This document shows positions 6,314-64,000 of a DNA stretch of 64,000 nt, in pieces. Where the stretch lies: the NCBI GenBank assembly GCA_037043015.1, contig CM073328.1, forward strand, positions 16,279,495 to 16,343,494, in the 5' to 3' direction. Under the pieces are notes generated by a model, which was not told the origin of the DNA, did not search any database, and worked only from the letters and a program-made list of their open reading frames with translations. The translations under genes and the position numbers were made by a program. This stretch comes from Bryum argenteum. Taxonomy: Eukaryota > Streptophyta > Bryopsida > Bryales > Bryaceae. Every line of letters starts with the position of its first letter. The stretch's first letter is position 1.

Positions 6314-6317
6314 AAAT

Positions 6318-11744: not shown

Positions 11745-12012
11745 TTTAGCTCGAATCGAGCTAAACCAAAGGGATCCATGTTCACAATAATGCATTTTAA
11801 GTTTAGCTCGAATCGAGCTAAACTGCAGATGCAGTAGTGTTTAGCTCGATTCGAGCTAAACTGAACTGCATCTGCAGTTTAGCTCGATTCGAGCTAAACA
11901 GTACTGCATGTGCAGTTTAGCTCGATTCGAGCTAAACTTAACTGCATCTTCAGTTTAGCTCGATTCGAGCTAAACTTAACTGCATCTTCAGTTTAGCTCG
12001 ACTCGAGCTAAA
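11745..12012. repeat. palindrome array A2, seven copies making up an intron
   Basis: Seven palindromes occupy the intron 11,693-12,042. The last five are head-to-tail units of exactly 38 bp, each a 23-bp palindrome plus a 15-bp spacer resembling TGAACTGCATCTGCA, so they arose by local tandem duplication. The intron is bounded by GTAAGC and a CTGTACTCGATTTTGCAG acceptor, with phase 0 on both sides. Confidence 0.9.
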
Positions 12013-16468: not shown

Positions 16469-16618
16469 TCGGAATGCGACACACCTCCCCTCGGACTGCG
16501 CCGCACCTCCTGTGCAACGTCAACGGACCTCCCCTCCAACTCCTCGGAATGCGACACACCTTCCCTCGGACTGCGCCGCACCTCCTGTGCAACGTCGACG
16601 CACCTCCCCTCCAACGTC
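16469..16618. repeat. 75-bp tandem duplication, C-rich
   Basis: Two adjacent 75-bp units start with TCGGAATGCGACACACC and differ at only a few bases. They lie in a C-rich stretch (16,380-16,700) that is open in several frames on both strands, an effect of composition rather than evidence of a gene. Confidence 0.8.
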
Positions 16619-17009
16619 GACGCACGTACTTTCTAGGGCAACTACTCTCTAGAATAAGCGCTCTTCGAACAACGCCTTCTCACTCGCGGCACTGCAAACC
16701 CCACTGCACCTCCTACAACCGAATCACCGAAACCCCGAAACTTACAAAACTACTCTACGTCACTAACTTACAGCAACCACACGCACGAAAAAACACACAC
16801 AACCCAATTCTAAGTGCTACTCGCAGGGCTACGCAAAGCGCGAAAATGCGAAAAAACGGAAGCGAAAAGCTGCAAGGAAGCAAAAAGCGCGAAAATGCGG
16901 GAGCGACAGTGCGAAGTGAAAATTAGAGAAGTGAAAAGGTGGGAGAAAGAGAGGGGGAGGTGAAAGGCGGCGGTGGTACATTCATGATTTGTATACAATC
17001 ATCATGATT

Positions 17010-17062
17010 ACTACCGAGGCCATCATTTTTACTGCCGAGGCTTTCATTACTGCCGAGGGAAT
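17010..17062. repeat. short direct repeats of TACTGCCGAGG
   Basis: Three copies of (T)ACTGCCGAGG or its variant TACTACCGAGG, separated by short variable stretches containing ATCATT or TTCATT, lie at the boundary between the GC-rich block and the AT-rich interior. Confidence 0.7.
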
Positions 17063-17159
17063 CATTTTTTAAAATTTTGGTTTATTCCACCATTTTCCAC
17101 ATTAATTTAGTACTTGTATTTATGTTTTCTATCTCGTAAATTTTATTTCTTTCACTTTC

Positions 17160-17700
17160 AGTACTCGTCTTTTTTTGAGCAACATTAGAATCTCAATTCA
17201 AATAGGCTAAGTTTAATTCGAAGTGTAATAATATTAGTTTCCATTCACTTTTATTACTCATCTTTTTTAGAGCAACATTAGAATGATAATTCAAATAATC
17301 TAAGTTTAATTCAAAGTGTAATAACATTAGTTTTTATTCACTTCTATTACTCATCTTTTTTAGAGCAACATTAGAATGATAATTCAAATAGGCTAAGTTT
17401 AATTCGAATTGTAATAATATTAGTTTCCATTCACTTTTATTACTCATCTTTTTTAGAGCAACATTAGAATGATAATTCAAATAATCTAAGTTTAATTCAA
17501 AGTGTAATAACATTAGTTTTTATTCACTTCTATTACTCATCTTTTTTAGAGCAACATTAGAATGCTAATTCAAATAGGCTAAGTTTAATTCGAATTGTAA
17601 TAATATTAGTTTCCATTCACTTTTATTACTCATCTTTTTTGGAGCAACATTAGAATGCTAATTCAAATAGGCTAAGTTTAATTCTAATTCTTGTATTAAT
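17160..17700. repeat. 93-bp tandem repeat array, about six units with two alternating variants
   Basis: The unit contains GAGCAACATTAGAAT, TCTAAGTTTAATTC and CACTTTTATTACTCATC. Units alternate between a version with AATAGGCTAAG and one with AATAATCTAAG, so the array also has a 186-bp higher-order period and grew by duplication of a dimer. No coding potential is seen. Confidence 0.85.
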
Positions 17701-17957
17701 ATTAGTTTTCTATTTAGTCTTGTCAATTTGTTGGAACTAATTTGATGTTTAATATTGTGTACTCTATTTTTAGTATGTGAAATTTACATTGCGATTCTAG
17801 TCATCAATTTCAACCATGTTCATTTCCAACCATGTTAATTTAAGACGCGTCTATTTGCCAAGTGCTTCGAAGTGCCGTGTGAAACACCGTGGGGAAACCG
17901 TATCCATGACGAGCTTGCTCAAGCACCGTGCGCAATGTAGTTACCGCAATTGATTAA

Positions 17958-18134
17958 GTGGGAGCGGAATTACTTTAACCCTAATTACACGTAAAGAGTC
18001 AGGAGTCACACCTAGAATTGGCCCCTGCGTAGCAAATCGAGCACTTGGAGGCTGCTCCCCTCCGCGGAGTTGGTGCTACAATCGTTTCATCGATAGATCA
18101 TTGTAGGATTGATCACCGTGATTCCGCTCCCACT
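17958..18134. repeat. short inverted repeat pair, possible hairpin or small MITE-like insert
   Basis: AGTGGGAGCGGAAT near 17,958 is the reverse complement of ATTCCGCTCCCACT near 18,121, with ~150 bp between. No flanking duplication could be confirmed. Confidence 0.35.
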
Positions 18135-18179
18135 TGGTTCCTCCATTGAGTCAATCAGGTAGTTGCTACTGTAGACTTT

Positions 18180-20980
18180 CGGCTAAAGGCACAACAAGTT
18201 TTTTATGGATATTTTTTAAATAATGCTATAAGAAATACGTTGATATTTGAATTTTAAAAAATTGGTAGTGGTTTAAATTTTAAATTTCGTTATTCCTTGA
18301 CATGTGCCTGGTTTTCCCTAGCAGAATATTTAATATGTGAAATCATTATTACTTTTTAATTAGTATATGCTATACATACGTAGTATTCTTTAATAAAGAT
18401 TCAAGTGTTTAATTTCCAAGATTTGTTCAATCATTTTAATGTACATAAGTATCACTCTTGAATTCAAATCTTCGTACGTGGTTTATTTTCCAAAGTTTGG
18501 AAATCACAAGGTACAAAAGTATTGCATTCAAGTATAATAGGTTTTATTGGTTTCTAACTTTTGTCCATAAGTAATCACTACACATTTCCAAATAATGCCA
18601 TGTATTCCAAACATACCTTTACATAGAAATTACATGTACAAGTATAGGATTTATTACAAATATATAATATTTCCTATATTGGTAATTATGCCTATTTAAT
18701 ACATTATTATAGGAATACATTATGTATAGTAATTTATAGTACGTTATTTAACATCATTATGAATATAGTGCAAAATTTAATTATAATTTTGAATGTTATC
18801 ATCTTATAGCATGGGTATAGTTAACTACAATTATAATGATATTATTATTTATTACTAATAACTATTTCCGTTCGTATATAATTTAAACTAAATAGCTTAG
18901 ATGAGGATAAAGTACTTAAAATATTAATTTGGAATAATGGGCACATTTCACATTAAAGGGTGATCATAGTACATTAATGTCCGTTATAAATGTAACGATC
19001 TATTTCACTTAAGATGATTATTTCGTTTCAATTTCTTTATTAGAAATCATTGACATAAGGTCACCTATAATTGACCAAATATTTTGATTTATGCTTTGAT
19101 GTAACATAGCAAGGTATTCTAACTATTTGCACACAAATTGATAGATAATTTAAGAATTTCTATCAAAGTTACTTAACTTGGAGCATAAAATCTAGCATAA
19201 ATAATTAAGAATATAGACTTGCTCTCGCAAGATGATTAGATGAACAAAAGCCTAAAATTATGAGTGCTAGCAACCGTACAAATTAAAGTTTTCGTAATGC
19301 TGTAGATGTTGTATGTGATGCTTACAATAGCAATCCAAGTTAAGTATTGAGGATTCACAGTATAGTGTTTCGGATTTAGAGTTTTGGAGTTTAGGATATA
19401 GGGGTTAGGTTTTAGGGTTTAGGGTTTAGGGTTTAGGGTTTAGGATTCAGGGTTTAGGGTTTAGGGTTTAGGGTTTATGTTGTGTGCAGAATGGTGCAAT
19501 TTAGTTATTTTTCTATGTTGTTATACCTTAAGCTAACAATTTTGCTAAAATTCTGGTTTACGGTTTTCAGAATATTACTTGTTGAATACATTATATTCCA
19601 TACATTCATACCTTGATTTTGATGTAATAATATATGATTTATATTATTTGTTGCAAAGCAAGTTGAAGGCCTTTTATGAAGTTGCATATTTATTTGGAGT
19701 TTTACAGTTTGATACAATTTTTTATGCACTTAAGTTAATATTGCGTTGAGATTGGTAGTCAAATTGTTTCAGTTTGTTATTTTTGAGAATTCAATATTTC
19801 TATGTTTTTGAGGAAACTCTTTCATATTGACAATGAATCATATATAAAACCAAATTTTTTACGAAACATGACACACTATGATTAATACTCATATTAAATG
19901 GACTTTGAAATGCCACAAAACGCTTAAAAAACACCCAAGTGAAGACTAAAGATGAATAATTACAATCCATTATATACAATATATCCATTGAAGTTGACAT
20001 GTGAAACATACTATAGCTACATGCAATAGAACCCCATGTAGTGAGACTAATAAAGAATCCAATCACATTAAGCAATACACATAATCCTCAATGTCCATAA
20101 AAACAATTAAATTACTCGTTTCTCTATTCATTGAATAGAACATTGTAAATTTATTTCCTAACTACGGTGAAAATGAGTATTACTAACTTAGAAGATTATA
20201 ACTTTCAAACTTAGAGTATTTGAGTATGCCTAACTTTTAATCGCATGGTCAATAATGGCATGATAACTTTGAAATGCATGCTTTCATTGGAAGCCTATTT
20301 CGGCCAATGAGTGTAATATTACGATTGATCTTGTAGCAGGAATGTACAGAATTCGTCGAAGTAGGCAGGAATGGCGGGTGGATTCCCGCTTGAATTCGCG
20401 GATGCTACTTCTATGTAGAAATATAGGGAGAAGAAATTTTCCCGCCGGAATCTCACCACCGATTTTCCTGACAAATCGCATTTGTATTTCCCGCCTCATC
20501 TCGAGATAAGGTGGAGCGCGGGAAAGGCCAGACGAATCTGAATGACCTCTGAGAACGTGGCCATGTTGATTCCTTTTTCCTCATTTTCTGAAGGTGATGC
20601 TCCTCCTTCGCGCTTTCGGGCTCCGTCGGCGTTTTAGATTCCAGCACGCTGCACGTAGGGATCAAGATGTACTCCACACAAGCGTCAAGGTAAGACTCCA
20701 CGCATATGGCAGTTTATTGAATTGTGTCTCTGGTATCGTACGTGCTTCTTGCATTTTACAATTCAACTTCGGCGTCATAAACCCTAAACCCGAGAAGTTC
20801 CACATGCGTCGTCGACGCCTTTGCTGTGATGCTTAAGATTGTGTGTTTTCAATGTAAGTGCAGGCAAGCCTTCATTTTCAATGCATCCGTCTCGAGTGCA
20901 AACCTATTGCTTTCAGAGAATTAGGAGAAGCGGTACTCCGAAATATGCGCCGTGATTATCGGGAGAGAAAGAGTGCAGAC
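18180..20980. other. AT-rich transposon interior, no gene recognised
   Basis: The stretch up to ~20,280 is very AT-rich with no convincing ORF. From ~20,290 to 20,980 base composition rises and ORFs of ~80 codons occur on both strands (20,453-20,701 minus; 20,594-20,836 plus). These could be leader exons of the DUF7869 gene but match nothing I know. Confidence 0.4.
19395..19479 (+). repeat. interstitial telomeric repeat tract, TTTAGGG type
   Basis: About ten consecutive perfect or near-perfect copies of the plant telomere heptamer TTTAGGG (GGTTTAGGGTTTAGGG) lie inside the large transposon. It is an internal tract, not a chromosome end, since unique sequence continues on both sides. Confidence 0.9.
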
Positions 20981-20981
20981 A

Positions 20982-22370
20982 TTTAGCTAGAGTCGAGCTA
21001 AATACCAGGAGTACCACAGTGACGCAGTTTAGCTCGAATTGAGCTAAATTGCGGGGCTTGTATAGTCGAGTAATTTAGCTCGACTCGAGCTAAACTTCAG
21101 GACTTTGAAAAGTTGAGAGATTTAGCTCGACTCGAGCTAAGCTATGACTAATTGTAGACATAAAAGTTTAGCTCGATTCGAGCTAAACTCCAAGTTCAAT
21201 AGAGTTTGTTGAAAGCTAACCAGTTTAGCTCGAGTCGAGCTAAACTACATATACTAGTCGCGCAAAATCGTAAGTCGGTTTAGCTCGACTCGAGGTCAAT
21301 TAGACGTTTACTTTTGAGAAAATTGAAGCCCATTCAGTTTAGCTCGAGTCGAGCTAAACTAAGGCACCCCACTCGCCCAATATGTAACTCAGTTTAGCTC
21401 GACTCGAGCTAAACTGTGACCCTAAGTATGTCTGAATTTACCTAAATAGAAGAGTGAGCTAATGAAAACATTCTAATCCTCATACTATAAAGTTTAGCTC
21501 GAGTCGAGCTAAACTCAACTGTTTCATTACAATCATTTGGTATCTAGTAAGTTTAGCTCGTGTCGAGATAAACTGAGGTATCAACCTCGCCCAATATGTA
21601 ACTAAGTTTAGCTCGATTCGAGCTAAACTGTGACCCTAAGTGTGTCTGAATTTACAAAAAGGAAGAGTGAGTTGATGTATATATTCTAGTTCTCCAAGTA
21701 CGAAGTTTAGCTCGATTCGAGCTAAACTTCACGATTTCATTACAAGCCTTTGAAATCTGGTAAGTTTAGCTCGAGTCGAGCTAATCTAAAGATTCAATGT
21801 CTCCCAGTATGTAACTCAGTTTTGCTTAAGTCAAGCTAAACTGTGACTCTAAGAAAGTCAGAATTTACCGATATAGAAAAGAGAACTGATGTAATTAGTG
21901 AAATCCTTAGACTCTGAAGTTTAGCTCGATTCGAGCTAAACTGACTGATTTCATTACAGACTCTTGAAAGCTGAGACTTAGCAAACTCGAGCAATTTAGC
22001 TCGATTCGAGCTGAAGTATACGACCTCTGAAAGTCGAACACTTAAGCTCGAGTCGAGGTGAATAATCCAAATTATCTATTCCAAGAATTAAATTTGGACT
22101 TGATTTATATAAGGTGGTTTGCCCACTCGACTCGAGCTAAAGCTAAGATATATTGTAGTTGATAAGTTTAGCTCGAGTCGAGGTAAAGTGTAAGGCATCC
22201 GATACTACGTCGGTTTAGCTCGATTCGAGCTAAATTGCAGCATAATCGATACTGAAAGTGTTTGCTCCATTCTAGCTGAACTGTCGAACTCATTTTCGCA
22301 AGGATGTTTACTTGGAGTCCAACTATTCTTTTTATCAATCAATTCTTCGAGGCGTTTAGCTCGATTGGAA
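20982..22370. repeat. palindrome array C, about 22 copies upstream of DUF7869 copy 1
   Basis: It has the same TTTAGCTCGA palindrome as arrays A and B, with the last full copy at 22,213-22,235 and degraded or half copies to 22,370. The spacers are homologous to those of array B but inverted: here the order is palindrome then GTGACCCTAAGTATGTCTGAATT, whereas B has the reverse complement before its palindromes. B and C are therefore arms of a large imperfect inverted repeat, each pointing at a gene. Divergence of many copies suggests age. Confidence 0.9.
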
Positions 22371-22680
22371 CTATTTAGCATTACATGTCAATATCTAAGG
22401 TTTACCTCGTCTTCAGCTAAGACCTTGGACTCTATTAACTATGGTGGATGTGATGACATACACTTCTTCAAAAATCGACGTTAAGTTTGTGACACTCCAA
22501 TTTGTAACATTCATTTTCATTAAATCCGTTTCAAACTACATGTGCTCGCTTTCTAAAAGGCGTTGGTTAGATCAACTGAGCTATACTATAGAAGGAGTCG
22601 TTATATCAATATTGTCGTGACTTTCTTTGTGATCAATAGCCTTTCCTATAACTTGTTTCTATGTTCTTGTGTATCTGCAG

Positions 22681-25563
22681 ATGGACACCTCATCCGGCCG
22701 GAGAGAGTCCGTTGTTCCACCAAATGAATCCGGATATTCCAGAGTTTGAGGTTGTTCCACCTCGGCTCTGGTCGGGAAGAACTGTGGCGTTACTTGACAG
22801 CGATGGTCTCAAAATTGCTGAAGGTTTACCTCGGAATTTACGATCCAGTGCCCTTACTGATACTTCTGGACCCCTCGGTAAATCGGTTATTGTTGTGCAA
22901 ATTTCAACTTTGTTTGTGCCTGTGGACGATCCTGACGACTGGATTTACTCCTTCAAGTCGTGGCCCATTGATCGAGTTCTTTTGGACGGTGTAAGTCTGT
23001 TGCACCATACCCAGCGGGATGTGTACAACCGATGGGTTAAAGAACAGGGTCGGGTCAATGGTAGACACACTCGTACGTATGACAATTCCAAAAGGAATGT
23101 TCCTACTCCAGCACCTCGCAGAGCAAAAAACTTGTTGACTCAGCAGTCAATCAACGAAGTCGCATCGAATACCTGTTGTAGCCGAAACTGTGTCCAACAC
23201 TACCCTAGAGACAAGATAAAGGTTCTTAGGTCTCGCATGTATGAAAACACAACGGTGCAGTTCAGAAATCACATCAAATTAGATGTTCATCGACAATTTC
23301 ATACCAATGCTAATGGGCGGAATGTGGTGATACTTGAAGGCATAGACGTATGTCCGTTAGCGTGGATGCAAATTATGGGTGTTAGTTCTAGCGTCTTTTA
23401 TCGCAACGCTTTGAACGCAGCTGCTGGGTTCGAAGCCCAACATCATGGGAATACTGGAAAACGAAAGCCCAGGGGTCATACTTTGTTGTAAGCTTCATTG
23501 TCTTGGGCGCATTACTTGCTAGGCATGTCGACCACATGCCTCACAAGTCTCATAGCCTCTCCTCGGGGAGAAGGTTGTAACGAAGATACTTCCCGCAAGT
23601 TTTAAGTGGAAAAATCAGATTCCGCCTATATGCGAACATCTTGCTGAATGCGGGCTTCCACCAGTGTCAGCTTCAAGCATTAGCAAAATCCGCCGACTTA
23701 GCTATCCTGAGTACTACGCGAAGAGGGCAGGAGACAATTTCGCACGGTGCTCAAAGTGTGATGAATTTGACTCCTTGATGAAGCTCACCTTACCAGGAAG
23801 TCAATCTGCACTTTTATGGTCGAGGAAACTAAGTGCGCACTTGGACTCGGCGTTTGCTCATAGGGATTTGTATTACCTCAATCGTTTTAGGTCGAAGACA
23901 ATGCCTCATGAGGTTCTTACTATTATGCATGACAAGATGGACCACTCGAAGACAGCCTCCCCTGCCTTATCCCACAAGGTGAAGAACTTAGATGGTCTCA
24001 TGAAATTGCCTATAGCGGTAACAGGCATTTTAGCTCATGGACATGTAGATCAGCGCTATGCGCATTTTGGATTAGATATTTTCTCACATGATGCAAATTA
24101 CACTGTGGGGTCATTTGCGAAGCTGCTACGCGATCTGGAGGCTCCGCCGAAATCCTCCTCCAAGACAACTTTTTTCAGAGGCATCTTCGCATCCTCTTTA
24201 CGCAGCTCTTCTTCATGGTTCAGAGATGTGTTTGGATCCACTTGGCCCGATTCCAGACATTTTGGTTCCACCTAGGCCATTGCCCCCTATATTAAATGTA
24301 CAAATGGACAATGCTGTTAGTGACAACAAAAATAGGTTTGTCTTCAGCTTCTGGTCCCTTCTCGTAGCCAAACGGGTATTTCGAGAAGTATATGTTAATT
24401 TTATGCTAGTTGGTCACACTCATGATGACATAGATGCATTATTTGGTCGTTGGAGCATGGCTTTGCATAAGGAGGATTATCCTACTATCCCTCTTCTCAT
24501 GAAATCTTTCATGAAGCTAGAGTCACTTCCTGTCATTCCTCACCTCGTTCAAGAGGTTCCTAACTTCAAATCTTTCATTCAAGAGTGGTTGCTGGAGGGT
24601 GATGAAGCATTGGTTGGACATACAAAAGCGCATCAGTTCAAGTTCTTCCTCGATGCACGTGGGTGCCCGGTTATGAAGTACAAAATTTTTTGCCATGACG
24701 ATGAATGGCTTCCTAGAGGTGATGAGGGGGGCATTAAGTTATGGAAGGAGGATTCAGAGGGTAGATCGCTATGGCCTAGGGGGTACCACAAGTGCGCGAC
24801 AATGCGGATCGTCATTTGCCGGAGATTGTGAAAGGAGTTTCAGGATTTGTTGACCATTGGGAGCGATTATCACGTGAGTCAATCGAATCAAGGCGACTGT
24901 ATGAGCCTCTCTCATACTATTGGAGCAACGTAAAGGATGCTCTTTGTATACCTATGGATACACTAATATCACAGCAGCCTGGTATCCCGTCAACTCTTGA
25001 AGAAGCTCCGGAGTTGGAACATGGGTTTTGGCCATCAACTCGTCTCGCGCATGCTGTAGAAGATGAGTTTACATTGGAGGGGACACTTCGTGAAGAGTAC
25101 GGCGAGGACGACGACTTTTTGTAGGTCAAAGACGTAATCGACCACGACTCGTCATTCCGAGTTGGACGAGACCTTTACAAGGGATATTTTGTTGCACTAC
25201 GTCCATGTGGCACGAGATGGCCGTCCATTTTGGATAGGGCGTGCTATGTCGATCCAAATTCAAACCCAGACTTACCTAATACCGTAGAAATCCGGTTTCT
25301 TTCGTCCCATATCACGGGATAGGGATGTTCAAAAGTATTATACAAGTTGGGATGTAAACAAAAAGCTACGTTGGACGGTGGAGAGAGGCGTCGACGTTTC
25401 ATCTCAAAGTACGGATGCCATTTTCACAGCATGGAAATCTAGAACAAGGCAACCTAGGGGGGACGACGGAATGGGGCAAGATATGACTATTTCAATACCT
25501 GAAATTCAAATCAATATCATAAAGGCCTCTTTGGGAGAACTTGCCACATCTTCAGAAGAGTAG
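22681..25563 (+). pseudogene. DUF7869-type probable DDE transposase, decayed copy 1
   Basis: Homologous along its length to the intact gene at 59,644-62,460 but spread over three frames, with about four or five frame breaks, so not functional. Recognisable segments in order: ATG directly after the acceptor GTATCTGCAG at 22,680; a Cys motif CCSRNCVQHYPRDKIKVL; NFARCSKCDEF; IMHDKMDHSKTASP; AHGHVDQRYAHFGLDI; VQMDNAVSDNKN; VGHTHDDIDALFGRWS; and a C-terminal IPEIQINIIKASL just before the stop. The acidic residues in HDKMDH, QMDN and THDDID are the likely RNase H-fold triad. Divergence from copy 2 is large, so the two are separate lineages rather than recent duplicates. It sits between palindrome array C and the right TIR, the expected place for the element's transposase. 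Confidence 0.75.
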
Positions 25564-25962
25564 TATTCCATCAATGATGCTCTACGCATCCGATAGCCGA
25601 CTCTTAGACCCTTTAGTTTGTATTCTAATATGTAGTCGTAAGTGAATTACATATTATACTGTATTTTGTTCATTTCCTACTATATATTCAAATTATGGGT
25701 TGATGCAATCCAATTCTTCATATTACGATGTTGATCCAATCTACGACAAGTGCTTATCATATTGCTATCACAAGGGTCTTAAACACTCTGTTTTATTTTC
25801 TTCATCTCATGACATGCTTTCTACATAATGTTTTGATCTAAGTGGACCTCCCAATTTAATGGAAATTTTATTTTCATAATACATATGCTTACGGTGTGGC
25901 CAATAACTGAGTGAATTTTAGCTCGATTGAACTCCATGTATTAATTTGGGAGATTGTTCTTC
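25564..25962. other. 3' flank of DUF7869 copy 1 up to the TIR
   Basis: AT-rich non-coding DNA that would contain the 3' UTR. One half-palindrome (TTTAGCTCGATTGAAC) survives at ~25,918, consistent with still being inside the transposon. Confidence 0.5.
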
Positions 25963-25986
25963 TCCCATTATAACGAATACGAGGTT
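25963..25986 (-). repeat. right terminal inverted repeat of the large transposon
   Basis: Read on the minus strand it begins AACCTCGTATTCGTTATA and matches the left end at 23 of 24 bases. AAAT follows at 25,987-25,990. Confidence 0.8.
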
Positions 25987-25990
25987 AAAT

Positions 25991-51806: not shown

Positions 51807-51924
51807 GGGCGCACTCACATGTGAGACCCGACCCCATAATTTCACTGTAGCCACCCATAATTTTTGAAGGGTCACTTTTCAGGGTGAACATTACGGGTCA
51901 CTTCCATGTTCATTCATGATGTTA

Positions 51925-52948
51925 TAAATTAGTGTGTTCTTTTGTGGCTTATTCCCTGACAATGTAAAGTTAGCATGGGCCCATTCACTACTTCCCATGT
52001 TCCCATAGCCCCAAAATACATTTCTTTCGTCTTCTTCTTTCTAGATCTAGATTCAACTTTTTTCTTTCCCTACAACCTCTCCACTCAATAAATAAGTATG
52101 GACGAGTGACATTAACTCCTTTTTGGAGCTTTGTTGGAGCCAGTATTGTTGGAGCATTATTTGTTGGAGCATTATTTGTTGGAGCATTATTTAGCCTTGC
52201 TTGGAAGATTACCCAAGTGTAAGTATTTGATCTCAGATCTTGCCTTCTTATCTTTTGCTTGGGATCAAGCTTGTCTGGAAGATTATTCAAGCATGAGTAG
52301 ATTGTTAATTTTCTCATGACACTTTTGCTGAGGGAGTACACAAATCATTCCCATTTCATTATATATAAGGAGGTGTCCTGCCGAGTAGCTTCAAAAATGG
52401 CATTTAGGAACCAAACTTGTGGTAGTAGTCCTCACAGGACATGGCCGGCTCTGTCAACTTGGCCGACCACGAGGACATGGCCGGCTTCATGCATTCAACC
52501 AATGCTAATGGATTTCTAATCTTTAATGATTGTCAATTGGTTTTTTATTTCAACTTGCATGGTAATGGCACTCGGTTTGAGTATTGAAAATTTACAGTGA
52601 ACTTAAAGTTTGGTAGTATGCAAAGGCAAAGTAAATAAAAGTCTATTATGCAGTGGAGTTAATGATTGGTAAGATGTGTGCATGGGCAAAGTAAATAAAA
52701 GTCAAGAACTATGATTTATTTGGTTAACCCCTATGTGAGGATTACATTGTGATATTTTTCAATTAGATCATCAGTTATGCCTCAAATTTGAATGCTTCAT
52801 TATTTTATCCAATGCTAATGGATTCCTAATCTTTCATGATTGTCAATTGGATTTTGATTTCATTTTGCATGGTAATGGCAATTCGTTTAAATATAAGAAA
52901 TTTGTAGTGAAGTTAATGATTGGTAAGATGTGTGCATGGGCAAAGTAA
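51925..52948 (+). repeat. left ~1-kb subterminal inverted arm of the Harbinger element
   Basis: Nearly identical to the reverse complement of ~56,512-57,528; for example a 117-codon open frame is shared with a single residue change. It contains TATATATAAGGAGG at ~52,364, a plausible TATA box about 710 bp before the transposase start, and triplicated GGAGCATTATTTGTT units (~52,149-52,192). A ~105-bp outer stretch between TIR and arm is not conserved between ends. Confidence 0.88.
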
Positions 52949-53076
52949 TTAAATGGATGGAGCTAATTGTTTGTAAGTGAGCACTTTATGGTTTATTAGT
53001 GGTTTATTCTATCTATATTATTACGAACTCAAATACGTATTTAGATTCTAAATATCAATCTGTCATGAATTTGTAG

Positions 53077-54465
53077 ATGGCTATAGAAAATACAACGCGG
53101 TTTAGCCATTTGGCTGGTGCTGCCATTTCTATTGGATGGGCATTGAAACTAAATTCAGATGCCAAAAACAATGACCAAACCAAGGCCATCTGTTTACCTA
53201 CGGGTTGTGAGAATTTTTCATGTTCAACTACGTTTGGAATGTCTCAAGAAAATGTAACCAAGAAATATATCATTCAAGCAATATTTGACGAAGAAGACAT
53301 GTATTGTTTTATGGCTTCTAATAAGTTGAGCAACCGTGAGCTCAACGGTATAAATTGGGGCCCGTGGTATATTAAGCCAAGAAGTACTCATTGGTGGGAC
53401 CAATTTTTTGGGCATATAATGAGAGATGATCCAGTGAGGTTCAAGAGTTTCTTTCGAGTTTCTGTTTCAACATTTCAATATATCACTGAGTTGGTTTATA
53501 TGGATCTCGACACAAAACCACCTCGAGGTCTAGAAAATTTGCCAAATCGGAAATTAGAGGTTACTCGACAAGTGGCTCTAGCCATTCGTAGATTAGCCAC
53601 GGGAGATTCTCTTAAGACAATAGGAGAGATGTTTGGTGTTGCAGATTCTACAGTAATAAAGGTAGTATCAAATTTTGTGCACTCAATTATTCGTCGTGGG
53701 CGTCATCATTTAACATGGCCTAATGTAGAGGACTTAGAAATTGTGAAAAAAAAGTTTGAAGCAAAACACGGATTACCACAAGTATGCGGAGCTATTGATT
53801 GCACTCATGTGCAAGTTGACCTACCAAGAAATGAACGCGCCACGGATTTTTTTGACAAGGACAAAAACTACAGTGTCACTTTACAAGCTATTGTGGATTC
53901 GGACATAAAATTTTTAGACATATTTGCTGGATTTCCCGGAGTGGTACACGATGCAAGGGTTTTTTCAAATTCAGGCTTTAAATTTGCAGTGGATGGTGGA
54001 GATCGCTTGAATGGACAACCTCGAGTTATTCGTGGCGTTCCTATTCCAGAGTTACTTATCGGAGATGCAGGTTATGCACAAAGTTTATGGATGCTTATAC
54101 CAATACCTGGTTATAATTTGACTCCCATATATGATCAATTTAATTTTAAGCATTCAAGTACAAGAATGTGTGTTGAGCGATCTTTTGGCATTTTGAAGGG
54201 AGTTTGGCGTATATTAAAGAGAACTATGCATTCGGTTGATATGAAAATGGTGCCACATATTATTTATTGTTGTTGTATTTTGCACAACATCATGCTTGAT
54301 AGGGCAGATGTTGTTAATGACGACCTCCCACTTTTGGGCCATCATGATGAAGGGCTCACAAGGTTGAGGAATCTTAGAGTTATAGCAGATGAAGCATTGG
54401 CTATTAGAAATGCTATAGCTGAACATTTATGGAATATTGAAAGGCACTCCGTATTAAGTAACTAG
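53077..54465 (+). CDS. PIF/Harbinger transposase (HARBI1-like DDE nuclease)
   Basis: A 462-aa protein that cuts and joins the transposon ends. Catalytic motifs of the DDE_Tnp_4 family are present in order: AIDCTHV (Asp ~240), IGDAGYAQS (Asp ~330) and VERSFGILKGVWRIL (Glu ~366). A helix-turn-helix-like region (TIGEMFGVADSTVIKVVSNFV, split here as TIGEMFGV / ADSTVIK, residues ~185-205) precedes them, as in plant PIF transposases. The length is normal for the family. The ATG follows an acceptor-like ATTTGTAG directly, so a 5' UTR intron reaching back to the inverted arm is likely. The partner MYB-like gene lies convergently downstream. Confidence 0.93.
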   Translation: MAIENTTRFSHLAGAAISIGWALKLNSDAKNNDQTKAICLPTGCENFSCSTTFGMSQENVTKKYIIQAIFDEEDMYCFMASNKLSNRELNGINWGPWYIKPRSTHWWDQFFGHIMRDDPVRFKSFFRVSVSTFQYITELVYMDLDTKPPRGLENLPNRKLEVTRQVALAIRRLATGDSLKTIGEMFGVADSTVIKVVSNFVHSIIRRGRHHLTWPNVEDLEIVKKKFEAKHGLPQVCGAIDCTHVQVDLPRNERATDFFDKDKNYSVTLQAIVDSDIKFLDIFAGFPGVVHDARVFSNSGFKFAVDGGDRLNGQPRVIRGVPIPELLIGDAGYAQSLWMLIPIPGYNLTPIYDQFNFKHSSTRMCVERSFGILKGVWRILKRTMHSVDMKMVPHIIYCCCILHNIMLDRADVVNDDLPLLGHHDEGLTRLRNLRVIADEALAIRNAIAEHLWNIERHSVLSN

Positions 54466-55034
54466 TGACATTTGGTATGTAGACACTATATTTATTGAGG
54501 AATGAGCTTATAAGTTTTGAGGTTTTATTATTATTATTATTATTATAACTTATATCCTTTGTTGTACAAGAATTTCTTTTGGTCGTTGATGTATCTTGTA
54601 ATAATTTATTATATTCTTATTTATAAAATATAAACTTTCTTAATCATTTCTCTATATACTATGGTTGAATGCAACTTACATGGAACTTCTTACACTTTGA
54701 AGTAATTCAAAGTTTATCAATGTATGCTAGATATTTTTATGTGATGGTTAAAGTGATGATGACAAGATCAATACAAATGTCTAGAATTTTGCGTGATAGA
54801 TAGAACAAATTGCAACAAAACCCAAATCAGTGTTAAAAAAATAATGAGTTCCATTTTCTATGAAAAAACTGTACCAAAATATTTCGTAACGATTGTATTG
54901 AGTAATCTCAAACTTAACAATATCAGGAATAATGACATAACAATTAGTCAAGTTCCATATTTTAAAAAAGAACATTGTAAACTAGAAACCCTGGTAGTAA
55001 CGAGCAAAATGATTAACCGCAAAACATAAGCATC
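54466..55034. other. convergent 3' region between the two Harbinger genes
   Basis: AT-rich sequence containing the microsatellite and presumably the two 3' UTRs and polyadenylation signals. No additional gene is seen. Confidence 0.5.
54524..54546. repeat. (ATT)n microsatellite
   Basis: About seven ATT trinucleotides lie in the 3' flank of the transposase gene. Confidence 0.9.
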
Positions 55035-56299
55035 CTAGCTTATTATTATACCAACTAAGAAAACTACTATAACATATATAAATGTAATGATGAACATTCT
55101 ATAGGTTCTCGCGGATCCCCCCGCCATTGCTTTACTAATAGATAGTAAAGCATGGATAAAACCCTCATTCGCTTCTTTGGTGGCCGCCATTTTTTCCTTT
55201 TCAATCTCATGCATTTTCTCGTGAGATTTGATTTGCATATCCAATGCCTCACGATGTAAAATCATATTGTCTTCATGTTTTTTAACCTCAAATGCCAAAA
55301 CTTCCTTATGGCGCTTATCTGCCCTTTCTTCCCCATCCGCCATGGCTTGAATAGTTCGCTTTCTACTTGTTTCCATAGCTACGGCCAATGAGTCACTGTT
55401 TGGCAAGGATCGACGGCGCTTACCAGTACTTGAAGGATTAGATGTCCTAGTGGCACCATCGCCGGCTTGGTCTTCCAAGTGATCATCTTATAGACATTCC
55501 AAACAAAAACACATCACTTTTTAGGCCTTTAACAAGATAAATACTGAATCCCAACTTAATTCAAATACAATATAAGAAGTTAAGCTTCAAAAATTCTAAA
55601 ACCTTTATAGCTTCTATAAAAGTTTACTGAATCTTATTAACTTAAAACTTGTTATAAAAAAAAAAAAAACGTTATATATTGCATACCATGGTTTGAGGTA
55701 TCTATAATCTCCACTGGTTCAGTGGAACGCGATGATGAAGGCAACCAAGATGCGACGTTGTCAAAAACCTCCCTTTGCATATTTGTCTTAACCCTCAAAG
55801 CTTTTTTTCCGCCAGAATCCATCTCCCAAAAACTTTTCCTTCCACTTGGAATGTTTTTCTCATAGTCCCATATTTTCTGCCAATCGGACCGTATTCCCTC
55901 CCACTTATCATTGCATTGTTGAGGAGACCGTTCAACCCCTTGTGCCCACAATTTATCCGCAATTGCAACCCAACGTTGATGATGGGGCATATGAAGTGCT
56001 TTGGAGCCTACAAACCCGGGACCAAATTTGAGCCAATCATGTTTTCTTGCATCGAGTAGTATCAAAACCTCCGACAAGCTCCACATGCTCTTCTTATATA
56101 CCCGTGTTTGCTCCATCATATGACAAATTTCATCTGCAACTTGTGTTTCTCCCACCTCATTGCTACCATAAATTTCTGCTTCATCGTCCATTTGAGAATC
56201 CATATTTAAATCAAAAGCTGGTTGAGATGAAGAAGATGGAAGGTCGGAGCTTCCGGAATTGGTGAGGTTATTGAGCCACCTTGGATTGAAAGAAGACAT
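55035..56299 (-). CDS. MYB/SANT-like (trihelix) accessory protein of the Harbinger element
   Basis: Two exons: 56,299-55,687 and 55,486-55,035, separated by a 200-bp intron (donor CATG|GTATGC, acceptor TATAAG|AT, phase 1 on both sides), giving 354 aa. Residues ~65-165 form a trihelix/MYB-like DNA-binding domain with the Trp-rich pattern (SMWSLSEVLILLDARKHDW ... RWVAIADKLW ... CNDKWEGIRSDWQKIWDYE). A charged helical region (KKHEDNMILHREALDMQIKSHEKM, in shorter pieces KKHEDNMIL and KSHEKMHEIEKEKM) follows and probably dimerises. The C-terminus is hydrophobic (FIITFIYVIVVFLVGIIIS), unusual, and perhaps a tail anchor or read into non-coding sequence. In this superfamily the MYB-like protein binds transposon ends and brings the transposase to the nucleus. 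Confidence 0.85.
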
Positions 56300-56511
56300 G
56301 GTGAAATAAATTGTGATCTACTTCAAGAAACAAATTGACTAATTAGATGGTGCACATCAATTATAACAAACTTTAGTGATCTCACCTTCTATAATACAAT
56401 TAGATCACCTTCTATAATACAATTACACAAATGAATCTAATTGAAAAATATCACAATCTAATCCTCACGTAGGGGTTAACCAAATAAATCATAGTTCTTG
56501 ACTTTTATTTA

Positions 56512-57528
56512 CTTTGCCCATGCACACATCTTACCAATCATTAACTTCACTACAAATTTCTTATATTTAAACGAATTGCCATTACCATGCAAAATGAAAT
56601 CAAAATCCAATTGACAATCATGAAAGATTAGGAATCCATTAGCATTGGATAAAATAATGAAGCATTCAAATTTGAGGCATAACTGATGATCTAATTGAAA
56701 AATATCACAATGTAATCCTCACATAGGGGTTAACCAAATAAATCATAGTTCTTGACTTTTATTTACTTTGCCCATGCACACATCTTACCAATCATTAACT
56801 CCACTGCATAATAGACTTTTATTTACTTTGCCTTTGCATACTACCAAACTTTAAGTTCATCAAATTTTCAATACTCAAACCGAGTGCCATTACCATGCAA
56901 GTTGAAATAAAAAACCAATTGACAATCATTAAAGATTAGAAATCCATTAGCATTGGTTGAATGCATGAAGCCGGCCATGTCCTGTGTCGGCCAAGTTGAC
57001 AGAGCCGGCCATGTCCTGTGAGGACTACTACCACAAGTTTGGTTCCTAAATGCCATTTTTGAAGCTACTCGGCAGGACACCTCCTTATATATAATGAAAT
57101 GGGAATGATTTGTGTACTCCCTCAGCAAAAGTGTCATGAGAAAATTAACAATCTACTCATGCTTGAATAATCTTCCAGACAAGCTTGATCCCAAGCAAAA
57201 GATAAGAAGGCAAGATCTGAGATCAAATACTTACACTTGGGTAATCTTCCAAGCAAGGCTAAATAATGCTCCAACAAATAATGCTCCAACAAATAATGCT
57301 CCAACAATACTGGCTCCAACAAAGCTCCAAAAAGGAGTTAATGTCACTCGTCCATACTCATTTATTGAGTGGAGAGGTTGTAGGGAAAGAAAAAAGTTGA
57401 ATCTAGATCTAGAAAGAAGAAGACGAAAGAAATGTATTTTGGGGCTATGGGAACATGGGAAGTAGTGAATGGGCCCATGCTAACTTTACATTGTCAGGGA
57501 ATAAGCCACAAAAGAACACACTAATTTA
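56512..57528 (-). repeat. right ~1-kb subterminal inverted arm of the Harbinger element
   Basis: Reverse-complement partner of 51,925-52,948. It lies upstream of the MYB-like gene and carries the same TATA-like sequence in mirror position (~57,085). A segment of ~85 bp (CCTCACRTAGGGGTTAACC ... TTACCAATCATTAAC) occurs both at 56,463-56,545 and 56,716-56,800, so the arm itself contains an internal duplication. Confidence 0.88.
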
Positions 57529-57697
57529 GAATACGGGTTCTATATTAATTTCAAGGGCTTGCCACCTTCCCTTGGCAAGCCCGAATAATAATACGGGAGC
57601 CCGTAATTATTATGTTGGGTTGGGGAGCATGTGAGTGGCTTATTTTTCTGAGACCCGATCCATTTTACGGGGTCGGGTCTCACATGTGACTGCGCCC

Positions 57698-58299: not shown

Positions 58300-59643
58300 G
58301 CACAGAGAGTGACCGATTCACTCCACCATTTAAAACTGGTGCATGGTTACAGCAGATATTGATTTTTACACTGGTGTTTGAACCGAAAATGGGTTGATTG
58401 AAATTGAAGTCTTACAGCAGAGATTGATTAATCCACTGGTGTCACTACAAGAAAACCGAGAATTTTTCCAAATTTTTCATGTATTTGCTTTTGTTTCCTG
58501 ATTTTGTCGTAGTATGATTGAACCGGAGATGGGTTGATTGAAGGTTTACAGTTCTGAGATAAGATTTTGAGAATGCTCGTCCGGCGCATGATCGCTTGCT
58601 GTCCATAATCCACGATGCAAAGATGTTGGAGAGAAGCTTGAACAGAAGGTATTCATCGAATGACGTGAAAAGGGTCGCTCAGCCAGAAATCTGTTCGTCT
58701 TCGCTCGGCTTCAGGGAAGGTCTTCGATCTAGAGCAAAAAAGAGAATAACGAAGCTTTGATGCCTTGGTTGCAGCTAACATCTAGGAGACAAGATGAAAC
58801 TGAAGTGACCGCACATGAAAAGAGAATCGGCAGTCTTTCAGATCTGGAATCCTTTTCATTCAACGAGATTTGTAGGCTTGCACTTTTCGAAATATTTATG
58901 CAAAGCTAAGACTTCCAGGTCAAGCGAAAACTTTCTGTCTTCTATCTATCAAGGTAGGGGTATATACTACCTACTACTTATTGAGCCCTACTGATATCAG
59001 GTCTTACAACGGAAAACTAAACGATCACCGCATGTACAAAGACAAAATAATGGAATTGGCTGGGTCGGTCTTGTGGGGCTTGTAAGGGGATATTAAGTAT
59101 TTTGAGAGAATTTGCAATCTCAATTTAAATCAGTGGTTAAAAATAGTAAATCTGGTGTCAAGTAAAATGAGACTTAATTGAAAATGAGAATCGAATGAAC
59201 CCAACAAAAGAATGTAATTTGAACCCTCGATACCAAAAATTCTATTAATATATTTGTTGATCATTAATATTCATTATTTTGAGACGTAAAGTATATTGAG
59301 ACTACTTCACATCTCATTACTTGAGTCATAGATTGCAAGCTTGAAGGACCAAAAAGTATTATGCATGATGAATATTCTTACTTTAAAGAAAAATATATAT
59401 AAGAAGTAATCCGATCTAAGGACATATTAATATCTATAGAGAAATAAAATTATCACAACACTAATGGAAGGAAATAATCCCATGGAAATACATTGAAATG
59501 GATATACCATCTTACTATAAATAGATAAATCATCTCTAGAAGTAGTGTCATACTACTCTAATTTGCATTGGCTACATTGCGATGAGAAAGAATGTACCAT
59601 TGTAACTAATATAATCTAATATAACTATCTATTAATATGAAAA
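58300..59643. other. intergenic flank left of DUF7869 copy 2, nothing firm
   Basis: No gene recognised. If copy 2 belongs to a transposon built like the first one, the element's left end should lie within the last few hundred bases here. I found no sequence resembling the AACCTCG terminus, and the other end would be beyond the window. Confidence 0.4.
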
Positions 59644-62460
59644 CTACTCATCAAACTCAATAATTGAGTCCTTAATAATTGAAATTTGTAGCTCCGGTAT
59701 GCACATCTTGGGATTAACGGTTTCAAGACGAAATCTTGGCTTCCAAGCTCCCATGATCGATGTTGTAGCCACCCAAGTTCGATCATAATCCATATCTTTA
59801 CACCAAGAGTTACCTCTTCTTGTATCCCACCCTTCGTAAGTGTCAGGATTGACATGTTTAGAAGATACTGGCTTCCAATACTCAATGTGGATTTCTTGAG
59901 GATGCTCTACACTAGCATTTGGGTTGCTCAAAGCACGAGCTATCCAAAATTTCTTAAGATCTCCATCAGCCGGACGTAGCACAAGTAGGTATCCCTCATA
60001 AACATCCCGTCCAACTCTGAATGATGCTTGTGGACGATCTCGTATTTGTCCTACGAACGGAGGATCAACAGCAAATTCCTCGCGCAATTCTCCGTTATCT
60101 TCAAATCGATCCTCTTCACTTGGAGAGTACCTAGAAGTAGGCCAAAATCCATCCCTAAACGTTGATGGAGCAGGGACGGGTAAATCTAAAGCCTCACGAA
60201 CTGCTTTCCAATAGTAAATGAATTGTTCATGATGTCTACGATAGTCGCCTGTTGGATCAGCATCCGCCAAGGACTCCCACAAGCTCACGAAACCACTAAT
60301 TCCCTTTCGAATATCTTCTATATTCTTCATTTTGTTTGGAACTAGTAACGTAGGATCTCCAAGAGGAACCTGAGGTTGACCATTTGGCAAAACTTTCCAC
60401 AACCTAACCCCTGCACTATCTTGAGGAAGCCACTCGCTATCCGTACACAGAATTTTGTACTGCATCAAAGGCCAGCCGGAAGCATCTCTAAAAAACCTAA
60501 ATTGTTGGGCACTAGTATGCCCAGATAACGCCTCGTCGCCATCACAAAGGTAACCTTTGATGAACGTCTTAAAATCCGGAACTTCCTCAATTAAGTGAGG
60601 AATTACCGGCTTATCCTCTGTGTCCATGAAAGATCTCATGAGAAGGGGAACAGTAGGGTAGCTGTTGGTCTTGAGCTTACTACTCCATCGCCCGAAAAGA
60701 GCATCAATATCTTCATGAGTGTGACCCACAATAAGGAAGTTCAAGTAAATCTCTCTAAAAACGCCCTTGTACACGAGCAGTGAAAAGAATGCAAAAACAA
60801 ATCGATTCTTATTATCCCCGCAAGCATTATCTAGCTGCATGTGTAGCACCGGAGGAAGAGTCTTTCCCGGGATTGGAGCCTCTGGGAGAAGACCAAGCGA
60901 ATCCAAGCACATGTCCGCCCCATCCAAAACAGCCTCAGAGAGAGGGCTACTTCTACCACCACAAAACAACTGCCTGGAAGAGCACTTCGGAGGAGATTCC
61001 AAATCTCTTAGCAGTTGAGCAAAAGAACCGATAGTATGATTAGAATCCGTGGGATATATATCGAGGCCGTAATGTGCGTAACGTACATCTCCTTGTCCAT
61101 GAGCAATCATGCCTGTGATGGAAACCGGCAATTTCATGAAGGAATCGGTCGATTTACTCTTGTGTGAGAATTGCGGAGAGGCTGTCTTGGAATGATCCAT
61201 TTTGTCATGAATAATACACAAAGAAGATTCGGGCCGTGTCTCAGACTCTGAGTGGTTACTATAATAGAGCAACCTATGTGCCATTTGAGAAGTATTATGG
61301 CGTTTGAATTTGGCATCATGAAGAGCCCATGCGCGACTGCCTCGCGTACTGGATGCTCGAAGTTGTTTGATTTTGTCACATTCACCACAACGAGCAAATG
61401 TGTCACCCTTTTGCTTGGAAAAGTACTCTTGGAATGATTCTTGCCGGATCCTACTTAGAGCAGATTTTGATATAGGAGGAAGACCGTGGACGACATTGAT
61501 GGCATTCACCTCTGGTAAATTGTCCCTCCAGCGGAAGGAAGAGGGCAAGCACTTAGACACAACCTTCTCGCCCGTATCAACAGTCTTTGTTCGATGCGGC
61601 ATGAGATCCGCAGCATTTTCCACAATGGCTTGAAGGGATGCTGTGGCTTGCAATGTTTGGATACGAGGTTTCTTTGAACCACAGTTTCCATGGTCCTCCG
61701 CTTGCTGTCCGTCTTGATAGGCATACCTCCACCGGAAGAATGTGGCACGTGACACGCCCATAATCAGGTACCACGCCACGCAACACACCTCAATACCCTC
61801 CAACATAATCATGTCATTTCCGTCCGCCGCTTCGTGGACTTGACCATGCACACTAAGGAGACAATGTTTTCTGAAGTAAACATCACCGCGAACATAGAAC
61901 TGGAACCTCAAATCTTTAATTTTGCCTCGAGGGATAGGGTGCACACAGTTCTTTGGACAACAATAAGTTGTTGAAACAAAGTTGATGGACTCCGGTGTAA
62001 GAAAGTACTCCTTCTTAGGTGGTGAATCCCGAAGACGCCTTTGACGTTTGCTCTCGTACTGGCGTAGACCAACTCGTGGTGGCCGACCAAAAACCTTGCA
62101 AGCCGCATTGAAGATGGCGCGTTGGTCGTGGTCGTAGAGGCTTGCTCCGTTGAGAAGGACATGCGTGATTGGCCATGCACGCAAAGAGTAGATCCAACTG
62201 AAAGGAACCTCTGCTTCTAGTAATGACTCTGCTATCTGTACGCAGACAAAGTCGGATCCAAGAGGCCGACTACCAGTCTCTGGGACGACGCTAGAGTCAA
62301 CGGATTGACAGACAGCTTTTGCAACTTCAACACCGGCGTCATTCAGAAGAGTGACTCGTTTCGACACCCATGATGAACGGCTAAAACCCTCGCACTGTGC
62401 AACTCCTTCAGGTAGAACTGGTGGACGGAAATCGACACCGTTGACAACGAAAGTCTCCAT
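59644..62460 (-). CDS. DUF7869-type probable DDE transposase, intact copy 2 (938 aa)
   Basis: One uninterrupted exon. I start at METFVVNG because a pyrimidine tract ending TTTTTTGTAG|G lies directly before this ATG; the open frame continues 32 codons further upstream into that intron. Residues ~160-185 carry CCPKNCVHPIPRGKIKDL, probably zinc-binding with the later CGECDKI (~355). The likely RNase H-fold catalytic region is IIHDKMDHSKTASP (~418), then GDVRYAHYGLDIYPTD, LHMQLDNACGDNKN (~541) and VGHTHEDIDALFGRWS (~578), giving a D...D...E/D series. The C-terminal 250 residues include tryptophan-rich segments resembling a chromatin-reader or DNA-contact module, but no family is assigned. DUF7869 proteins are widespread and mostly uncharacterised; the transposase role is inference from the acidic motifs and from copy 1. 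A palindrome array lies ~100 bp upstream. Confidence 0.8.
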   Translation of the reverse strand: METFVVNGVDFRPPVLPEGVAQCEGFSRSSWVSKRVTLLNDAGVEVAKAVCQSVDSSVVPETGSRPLGSDFVCVQIAESLLEAEVPFSWIYSLRAWPITHVLLNGASLYDHDQRAIFNAACKVFGRPPRVGLRQYESKRQRRLRDSPPKKEYFLTPESINFVSTTYCCPKNCVHPIPRGKIKDLRFQFYVRGDVYFRKHCLLSVHGQVHEAADGNDMIMLEGIEVCCVAWYLIMGVSRATFFRWRYAYQDGQQAEDHGNCGSKKPRIQTLQATASLQAIVENAADLMPHRTKTVDTGEKVVSKCLPSSFRWRDNLPEVNAINVVHGLPPISKSALSRIRQESFQEYFSKQKGDTFARCGECDKIKQLRASSTRGSRAWALHDAKFKRHNTSQMAHRLLYYSNHSESETRPESSLCIIHDKMDHSKTASPQFSHKSKSTDSFMKLPVSITGMIAHGQGDVRYAHYGLDIYPTDSNHTIGSFAQLLRDLESPPKCSSRQLFCGGRSSPLSEAVLDGADMCLDSLGLLPEAPIPGKTLPPVLHMQLDNACGDNKNRFVFAFFSLLVYKGVFREIYLNFLIVGHTHEDIDALFGRWSSKLKTNSYPTVPLLMRSFMDTEDKPVIPHLIEEVPDFKTFIKGYLCDGDEALSGHTSAQQFRFFRDASGWPLMQYKILCTDSEWLPQDSAGVRLWKVLPNGQPQVPLGDPTLLVPNKMKNIEDIRKGISGFVSLWESLADADPTGDYRRHHEQFIYYWKAVREALDLPVPAPSTFRDGFWPTSRYSPSEEDRFEDNGELREEFAVDPPFVGQIRDRPQASFRVGRDVYEGYLLVLRPADGDLKKFWIARALSNPNASVEHPQEIHIEYWKPVSSKHVNPDTYEGWDTRRGNSWCKDMDYDRTWVATTSIMGAWKPRFRLETVNPKMCIPELQISIIKDSIIEFDE

Positions 62461-62558
62461 CCTACAAAAAAGAAGAAGATTAAAAACATAACTTAGTGCT
62501 TGTTTAATAGCATACAAGATGATCGAATATGAAAACCGAGCCAAAAATTCCGCCACAA
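62461..62558 (-). promoter_or_regulatory. probable 5' UTR intron end of DUF7869 copy 2
   Basis: TTCTTCTTTTTTGTAG immediately before GATGGAG is a strong plant 3' splice site. Copy 1 has GTATCTGCAG directly before its ATG, so both lineages appear to splice a leader onto the start codon, with the palindrome array in or upstream of that leader. Confidence 0.5.
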
Positions 62559-63495
62559 TTATCCCTGGCCCGTGGATACCAGACTATGGTTGGATATTAT
62601 CCACGCACCGGGTACAATAACGAACTCTACGTGTTAATGTAAATTATCTGTGACCCGGGGATAATGCTTTTTCTTGGGCCGATGCAAGGTTATCTCCGGC
62701 CCGGGGATAACTGTGTAACCGCCCACAAAAAACAGTAATCCCCGGGCCGGGGATAACCTTGCATCGGCCCACAAATTATATTTTCCCCGGGTCGGTGATA
62801 ACTGTTTTTGTGGGCGGATACATAGTTATCCCCGGGCCGGGGATAACCTTGCGTCCTCCCACAAAAAATATTATCTCCGGGCCGGGGATAATATTTTTTT
62901 GGTGGTAACAAAGTTATCCCCAGACAGGGGGTAACCTTGCATCCTCCCAAAAAAATATTATCCCGGCCCGGGGATAATATTTTTGTGGGCGGATACATAG
63001 TTATTCTCGGGCCTGGGATAACCTCGCAACAACCCACCAAAAAAAATATCCCCGGCCCGGGGATAATATTTTTGGCGGTAACAAAGTTATCCCCGGACAG
63101 GGGATAACCTTGCATGTTACCGCCAAAAATATTATCCCTGGGCCGGGGATAATTTTTTTGGTGGATTGTTGCGAGGTTATCCCCGGCCCGGGGATAATGT
63201 TATTATCGTGGGCAGCAGAAATATTATCCCCGGGCCGGGGATAACTGTTTTTGTGGGCGGTTACATAGTTATCCCCGGCCCGGGGATAACCATGCAACTG
63301 CCCACCAAAAATATTATCCCGGCCCGGGATAATATTTCTCGCCGCCCAATAATAATAATATTATCCCCGGGCCGGGGATAATGGTTTTCTTGGGTTGATG
63401 CTAGGATATCCCCGGGGCGTGGATAACCATAATAGCATAGATTCCAGGAATAATCCCTACAGACAGTAGAAGTTATCCCCGGCCCGGGGATAACT
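62559..63495. repeat. GC-rich palindrome array D, about 20 copies upstream of DUF7869 copy 2
   Basis: Each copy is half-site TTATCCCCGG, one central G or C, then the inverted half-site; about half are perfect. Spacing is about 43 bp. Spacers alternate between TTTTTGTGGGCGGATACATAG and, reversed, forms such as CCTTGCATCGGCCCACAAA, so neighbouring units are inverted relative to one another. Outer copies on both sides are degraded (62,559-62,610 and 63,405-63,450). The array is open in several minus-strand frames only because the repeat lacks stops; those frames are not genes. Confidence 0.93.
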
Positions 63496-64000
63496 TGCAT
63501 TCTATTAATAGTAAGTGCTGAACACTGTCATTCATGCCTTGAACTCAATTTGCGAACATCGCTCACCTGCGAATTGCAGAATTCGAAAGGAAAAGAAGGG
63601 CTCGCAACTAAAAAAACCAAGCACAAAAATTAGTACCGAATATAGAAGTCGAGAAATACATGACGAGCAATAGTCTTAACTTGAATCATTATCAAACTAA
63701 TGCAACAATACTGAAACCTCTAAATGCGAAACTACATCAGACGCACTGAGCACCAACTGAAACTTCTTCGACACACACGCAACCTTGAACCTACACACCG
63801 GAACGCAATATGAAATGGAGCGCACCTTGAGAACAAGAACGAGGGAGAGAGGAAAATGAAAGGACACTTGAGAGACAGAGTATGCAACCCGAGCCCGACC
63901 TCAACGGTTACATCGTGAGAGTATCTTTACGCCCGAAATCGTGCAAAAAGCCGACAAATTTTGTCGCAATATGGATCTTGTCTTGATTAGGATTCTAAAA
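63496..64000. other. right edge of the window, nothing recognised
   Basis: No ORF, repeat or motif could be supported. If the element of copy 2 mirrors the first one, its other genes would lie further right, outside the window. Confidence 0.4.

Follow-up and report, generated by a model that had tools for sequence, protein, structure and literature searches.

The 64-kb window, by which we mean the whole 64,000-nucleotide stretch of Bryum argenteum DNA analyzed here, carries two families of arrayed odd-length palindromes, and we hold with moderate confidence, on sequence evidence, that these arrays would be bound, in a lineage-specific manner, by a dimeric DNA-binding protein that the carrier element itself encodes. 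The carrier would be a large transposon, about 19.7 kb long in the case of copy 1, bounded by terminal inverted repeats and containing a DUF7869 gene, a gene here called GQHN, and a NIF-phosphatase-like gene. Each of the two protomers would read the half-site on its side of a free central base, and their occupancy of leaders and introns would keep the element expressed or unsilenced in a VANC-like manner. With changes in both the reading domain and the site, each lineage would acquire its own address. Regulation is favored over end recognition because the sites are internal, in leaders, introns, and gene junctions, and not at the ends. As far as the sequence can tell, the arrays are a property of whole mobile elements and not of DUF7869 alone.

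Arrays and carrier elements

The type B motif (TTATCCCCGG-N-CCGGGGATAA) was found at 17 places in the window with up to three mismatches (expected 0.00), all within the array at 62559–63493 (no strand), and at 20 places with up to four, with a spacing of about 45 bp. At three mismatches, the type A motif (TTTAGCTCGA-N-TCGAGCTAAA) gave 56 sites between 6998 and 22234 (expected 0.01). The arrays of the original prediction are real by these counts, and array A and array B each lie 5′ of a PF25273 (DUF7869) gene. Palindromes of the 10+1+10 form and of any sequence, with at most one bad pair, numbered 52 in element 1 (1.0 in five shuffles) and 13 in 59214–64000 (0.1 in 20 shuffles), compared with six (3.4 in five shuffles) in the 33 kb between the two elements and one (0.3) in 1–6316, so odd palindromes are not equally common elsewhere within the window.

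The two families had been described as sharing an identical 10+1+10 geometry with a free central base. Their geometry is similar, but type A is effectively 12+1+12 (the next pair is G in 49/59 on the left and C in 47/59 on the right, followed by A in 49/59 and T in 50/59), and type B extends by a purine/pyrimidine pair, with a purine on the left and a pyrimidine on the right in 17/17. The central base is free in type A (T20, C17, G15, and A10 in 62 sites), whereas it is mostly C or G in type B (G9, C8, and A3 in 20 sites). The type B site at 63309–63337 is one base shorter in each arm, which leaves a 9+1+9 core, and the one at 62957 has a single shortened arm. Fixed helical phasing of type A was ruled out by its irregular spacing.

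All 56 type A sites are enclosed by 25-bp terminal inverted repeats at 6317–6341 (+) and 25963–25987 (−), identical at 24/25 positions, and 6317–25987 was therefore taken as one mobile element of about 19.7 kb (element 1). The repeats, of sequence (T)AACCTCGTATTCGTTATA... and with ends reading (T)AACCTCG, have an E value of 4e-4 and a score of 21, where 200 shuffles reached at most 16; a possible 4-bp target duplication, AAAT, is weak and AT-rich. The array 5′ of DUF7869 copy 1 (20982–22234, no strand) contains 19 sites with up to three mismatches and lies in what is predicted to be a leader intron, with CTGCAG/ATGGAC at its end; the gene itself (22682–25563, +) is broken by frameshifts and stops. 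The array 5′ of the GQHN gene (13521–15295, no strand) contains 23 sites at the same threshold and is an imperfect inverted repeat of the array at 20982–22234. GQHN is our label for a second, divergent minus-strand gene, taken from its INGQHNVAAS motif; it spans 9047–13490 (−), its frame is apparently broken near 12.6–12.9 kb, and it had no significant Pfam or NCBIfam match. Its GT-AG introns 1 (11693–12042, −) and 2 (9917–10324, −) hold seven and five type A sites, respectively. The remaining two surround part of a NIF-phosphatase-like gene (7706–8305, −; PF03031, E 1.2e-11), one at 8914–8934 (no strand) between the GQHN and NIF genes and one at 6998–7018 (no strand; one mismatch) located 3′ of the latter. 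Arrays thus precede both DUF7869 copies as predicted, but type A is not confined there, with 37/56 sites located at the GQHN gene (5′ side or introns) or the NIF gene.

In element 1, the first type A site is about 660 bp from the left inverted repeat, and the two large arrays are set back about 7–9 kb from the left end and 3.8–5 kb from the right end of the element. A lone exact type A half-site (25917–25926, +) is found just inside the right end. A NIF/FCP1-type phosphatase-like gene accompanies these elements and follows GQHN in both the window and a related contig (L027:1368–2219). The center of element 1 between the A arrays (15300–20975, 5.7 kb) has no recognized frame; it contains a 93-bp tandem array at 17151–17708, a GC-rich 75-bp repeat at 16467–16615, and degenerate TTTAGGG telomere-like repeats at 19363–19477.

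DUF7869 copy 2 (59647–62460, −) is an intact 938-aa frame (P0001; PF25273, E 4.5e-43), and copies 1 and 2 are 40.0, 51.9, 59.4, and 34.3% identical over four main segments. For the left end of element 2, a AACCCTCGATACC stretch near 59220 was a candidate, being about as far from the gene, but AACCTCG alone was found at 11 places in the window and no end was therefore assigned.

The arrays had been placed just upstream of the coding region, and a better description is that they lie within a predicted 5′-leader intron defined by consensus splice sites only. For copy 2, this predicted intron (62464–63566, −) would hold array B, with a donor-like CAG/GTGAGC beyond the array and an acceptor, TTGTAG/GATGG, just before the ATG. 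A splice-acceptor-like sequence ends at the ATG or one base upstream of it in 3/3 DUF7869 genes read, and because of this and the donor-like sequence beyond the copy 2 array, the arrays probably sit inside leader introns. None of the 73 window sites (56 A and 17 B) falls within the coding intervals, which were set by the analyst, though these intervals make up 37% of element 1.

The window as a whole is plant-like and eukaryotic, with interstitial TTTAGGG repeats, and it includes one reading frame that we take to be integrase-like. A PIF/Harbinger-like element at 51922–57531 encodes DDE_Tnp_4 (53077–54465, +) and Myb/SANT (55652–56317, −) and has nearly perfect inverted repeats of about 1 kb (blocks of 546, 122, and 356 nt at 100%) with a 15-bp minisatellite inside; no clear target duplication was seen for it. 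The CpG observed/expected ratio is 0.47 at 26000–51900, against 0.63–1.26 in parts of element 1 and 0.79–0.81 in the parts of copy 2 measured, and the low value may reflect older methylated sequence.

Motif types and protein lineages

Related loci came from scanning a collection of prokaryote genomes for the coding pattern GHTHxDID, which matched 14 contigs. Three of them, L007, L012, and L014, encode relatives (E < 1e-12), and the matches in the remaining 11 (E 0.011 or weaker) were taken as chance. L007, a 4.3-kb contig with an intact DUF7869 gene (963-residue frame), belongs to the cyanobacterial bin Synechococcales AVDCRST_MAG81 (a MAG, G001) and is most likely a eukaryote contaminant there. 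GQHN genes were found on three further contigs of this bin, L027, L028, and L038; all four are eukaryote-like, intron-bearing transposon contigs and most likely contamination. PF25273 was found in that bin only among 386 genomes of its phylum, as was P0003 among 49 genomes (relatives and the bin itself). The viral contigs scanned yielded neither relatives of the proteins nor the motif, and tblastn against phages gave no match for P0001 and two weak matches for GQHN (E 0.4–0.8).

Upstream of its DUF7869 gene, L007 has type A sites at 3819, 4194, and 4274 with zero, one, and one mismatch, and two more with three mismatches lie downstream. L027 and L028 carry a variant, type A′ (TTCAGCTCGA-N-TCGAGCTGAA), at nine places each with up to five mismatches, and L038 carries type D (TTATCCTCGA-N-TCGAGGATAA) at five places with up to three mismatches. 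The sites are located within GQHN introns 1 and 2 in the window, L027, and L028, and within intron 1 in L038. Across the 4.8-Mb bin, the window A motif (up to two mismatches) occurred at 10 places on three contigs, all of which encode DUF7869 or GQHN, while its reversed control gave 0. A general palindrome, TTNNNCYCGRNYCGRGNNNAA (TTnnnCYCGR), which was built only after the A, A′, D, and B motifs were known, occurred at 12 places on four contigs (control, 2); 4/4 of these contigs encode DUF7869 or GQHN, and 4/4 DUF7869/GQHN contigs found in the bin have sites.

Comparing the half-sites of A (TTTAGCTCGA), A′ (TTCAGCTCGA), D (TTATCCTCGA), and B (TTATCCCCGG), it becomes apparent that the two window motifs, considered unrelated in the original prediction, are not so: all four follow the pattern TTnnnCYCGR, with columns 1, 2, 6, 8, and 9 invariant. 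Over 10 bases, A and A′ share 9, D and B 8, A and D 7, and A and B 5, so that type D bridges A and B. The motif types differ from one another in both arms, and a symmetric dimer site would be expected to change in this way.

Protein similarity follows a parallel order. DUF7869 copy 1 and the L007 protein, both associated with type A, are 60, 74, 80, and 65% identical over four segments, and copy 2, associated with type B, is 48% identical to the L007 protein. Likewise, the GQHN proteins of L027 and L028 (76–78% identical) both have type A′; the window GQHN is 38–46% identical to L028 and has type A, one base from A′, and the L038 GQHN (26–32% identical) has type D, three bases from A. Motif type therefore tracks protein similarity, as had been proposed, in three DUF7869 and four GQHN genes, a sample that fits co-divergence of site and protein yet is too small to test it; DUF7869 and GQHN were seen together on one sequence for type A only. 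The other DUF7869 genes divide with respect to arrays. While L007 has type A sites, the contigs of the distant genes L012 and L014 (25–27% identical), 5.2 and 6.4 kb long, contain 0 such palindromes, and GQHN was not found in their bins. In this small sample, the palindrome system appears to belong to this transposon lineage and not to DUF7869 at large.

Candidate readers and alternative explanations

The DUF7869 protein had been proposed as the protein that recognizes the palindromes. This assignment is not borne out as it stood, since the same sites surround a second conserved gene and 0 such palindromes were found on two distant DUF7869 contigs. As the reader, DUF7869 is about as likely as GQHN, each with somewhat less than an even chance. 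No significant DNA-binding domain was detected in P0001 (at best HTH_23 at residues 234–252, which is non-significant with E 0.066) or in P0003. Across five aligned proteins, DUF7869 conserves HDKM/SDGM, Q-x-D-N/G, and GHTH[ED]DID, and its acidic positions fall in the order strand-D, strand-D, helix-D in a low-confidence model of the core (seven rows, pLDDT 45.6). The pattern may be compatible with a DDE/D transposase, although the structure model is poor; Foldseek with this model returned nothing below E 1.7. An AlphaFold2 model of P0001 (four rows, pLDDT 31.9) was discarded, PDB sequence searches gave one match each (E 0.73 and 2.3) that were counted as nothing, and a limited literature search found no publication on DUF7869.

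The INGQH motif of the GQHN protein is, in our judgment, reminiscent of ParB, and ParB–parS also uses palindromic sites. Profile comparison did not support this likeness: there was no Pfam match, and hhalign against 11 ParB proteins gave a probability of 0.1 of 100, equal to the cross controls. A match of PF01555 (N6/N4 DNA methyltransferase) to GQHN, seen in L027 only, fell below the cut-off (E 0.033), and profile tests lent the methyltransferase assignment no support (hhalign probability 0.6 of 100 for alignment A4 against the methyltransferases and 0.1 for the other three pairs).

Conservation within the arrays bears on how the sites could act. When the two inverted A arrays were aligned and the best alignment was scored without its 170 gap and 69 mixed columns, 334/375 columns were identical in sites versus 512/753 in spacers (Fisher 8e-16, with columns that are not independent), a contrast inflated to an uncertain degree because the alignment was anchored on the sites. 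Inert tandem repeats without a reader, spread by slippage and palindrome-templated correction, would agree with the local tandem structure, and correction of imperfect palindromes could account for the two-armed change; yet the more conserved site columns, the isolated sites in equivalent introns of related genes, and the irregular spacing of type A make this the least probable explanation of those considered. Moreover, changed core pairs were uncompensated in 27 cases in A and 20 in B and compensated in 0, so that sequence is kept rather than pairing, which speaks for sequence-specific DNA reading over a hairpin. Intron hairpins in pre-mRNA that affect splicing or yield double-stranded RNA are improbable for the same reason (47/47 changed A and B core pair positions uncompensated) and because the letters, beyond mere pairing, are kept between loci. 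Sites in leaders and GQHN introns would nevertheless be transcribed, and outermost pairs are compensated in five cases, four in A′ and one in D. These compensated pairs, together with weak joint covariation of the flanks (p = 0.022 in A′, 0.04 in D, 0.073 in B, and 0.318 in A), count against our preferred reading, as a pure protein-site model needs neither.

Another view is that the palindromes are transposase assembly sites that bring the ends together in transposition, a role played by subterminal repeats in CACTA elements, and do not act on expression. The acidic pattern of DUF7869 in the low-confidence model makes a transposase role plausible, and the lone half-site near the right end points the same way, but the arrays are internal, and we consider this reading unlikely, though it carries more weight than the other alternatives. 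The element might also exploit a host transcription factor whose sites these would be, in keeping with the placement in leaders and introns; against this, two motif types occur in one window, the motif changes with the element lineage, and the window has no A or B site beyond the elements of the two arrays, which leaves host control marginally less probable than an effect at the RNA level. Sites for a dimeric protein of the element itself thus remain the reading we prefer.

Relation to known transposon systems

The CACTA (En/Spm) transposons carry subterminal repeats for TnpA, with many copies of a short motif per transposon, and TnpA also affects methylation. The window elements likewise repeat a short motif many times, whereas the arrays here are internal and intronic and the ends read (T)AACCTCG and not CACTA.

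A closer likeness is to the VANDAL transposons of Arabidopsis, whose VANC anti-silencing proteins bind the element's motif and remove DNA methylation. In its own transposons, VANC21 binds a motif that varies by lineage and is placed in introns, between genes, and in terminal noncoding DNA; the motifs of related VANDAL families differ, and tandem repeats give rise to them (PMC5735166). The systems (PMC5735166, PMC10398659) share noncoding motif arrays, in introns and upstream regions, in a multi-gene transposon, fast-changing repeats, and a family-specific motif, and the motif reader there is an element-encoded protein. Of the VANDAL-type features, noncoding motif arrays and a motif that differs between related families (A, A′, D, and B) were found here. 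However, the motif is a 21–25-bp palindrome here and the 9-base YAGTATTAY there, and the genes here are DUF7869, GQHN, and NIF. The VANC domains DUF1985 and DUF287 had no Pfam match in P0001, P0003, or the GQHN exons, and no MULE transposase was matched among the frames scanned. By domain matches, the element protein here is not a VANC.

A more specific version of our preferred reading is possible but doubtful. The elements might form an undescribed family of eukaryotic DNA transposons of about 20 kb with DUF7869, GQHN, and NIF-like genes, in which a dimer encoded by the element would coat its own element through leader and intron palindromes against host silencing. Lineages in the same genome would be separated by half-site positions 3–5, 7, and 10 on both arms, a private address code convergent with VANC through an unrelated protein.

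If sites and reader are as we propose, these elements would be an independent natural case, outside the Arabidopsis VANDALs, of transposon families each with their own noncoding motif arrays. Because the motif is long, palindromic, and changes stepwise via a visible intermediate, it would be directly testable here how a DNA word evolves together with the protein that reads it. Our reading would also give a role to the uncharacterized DUF7869 or to a second protein without a named family, and could yield new sequence-specific DNA-binding proteins.
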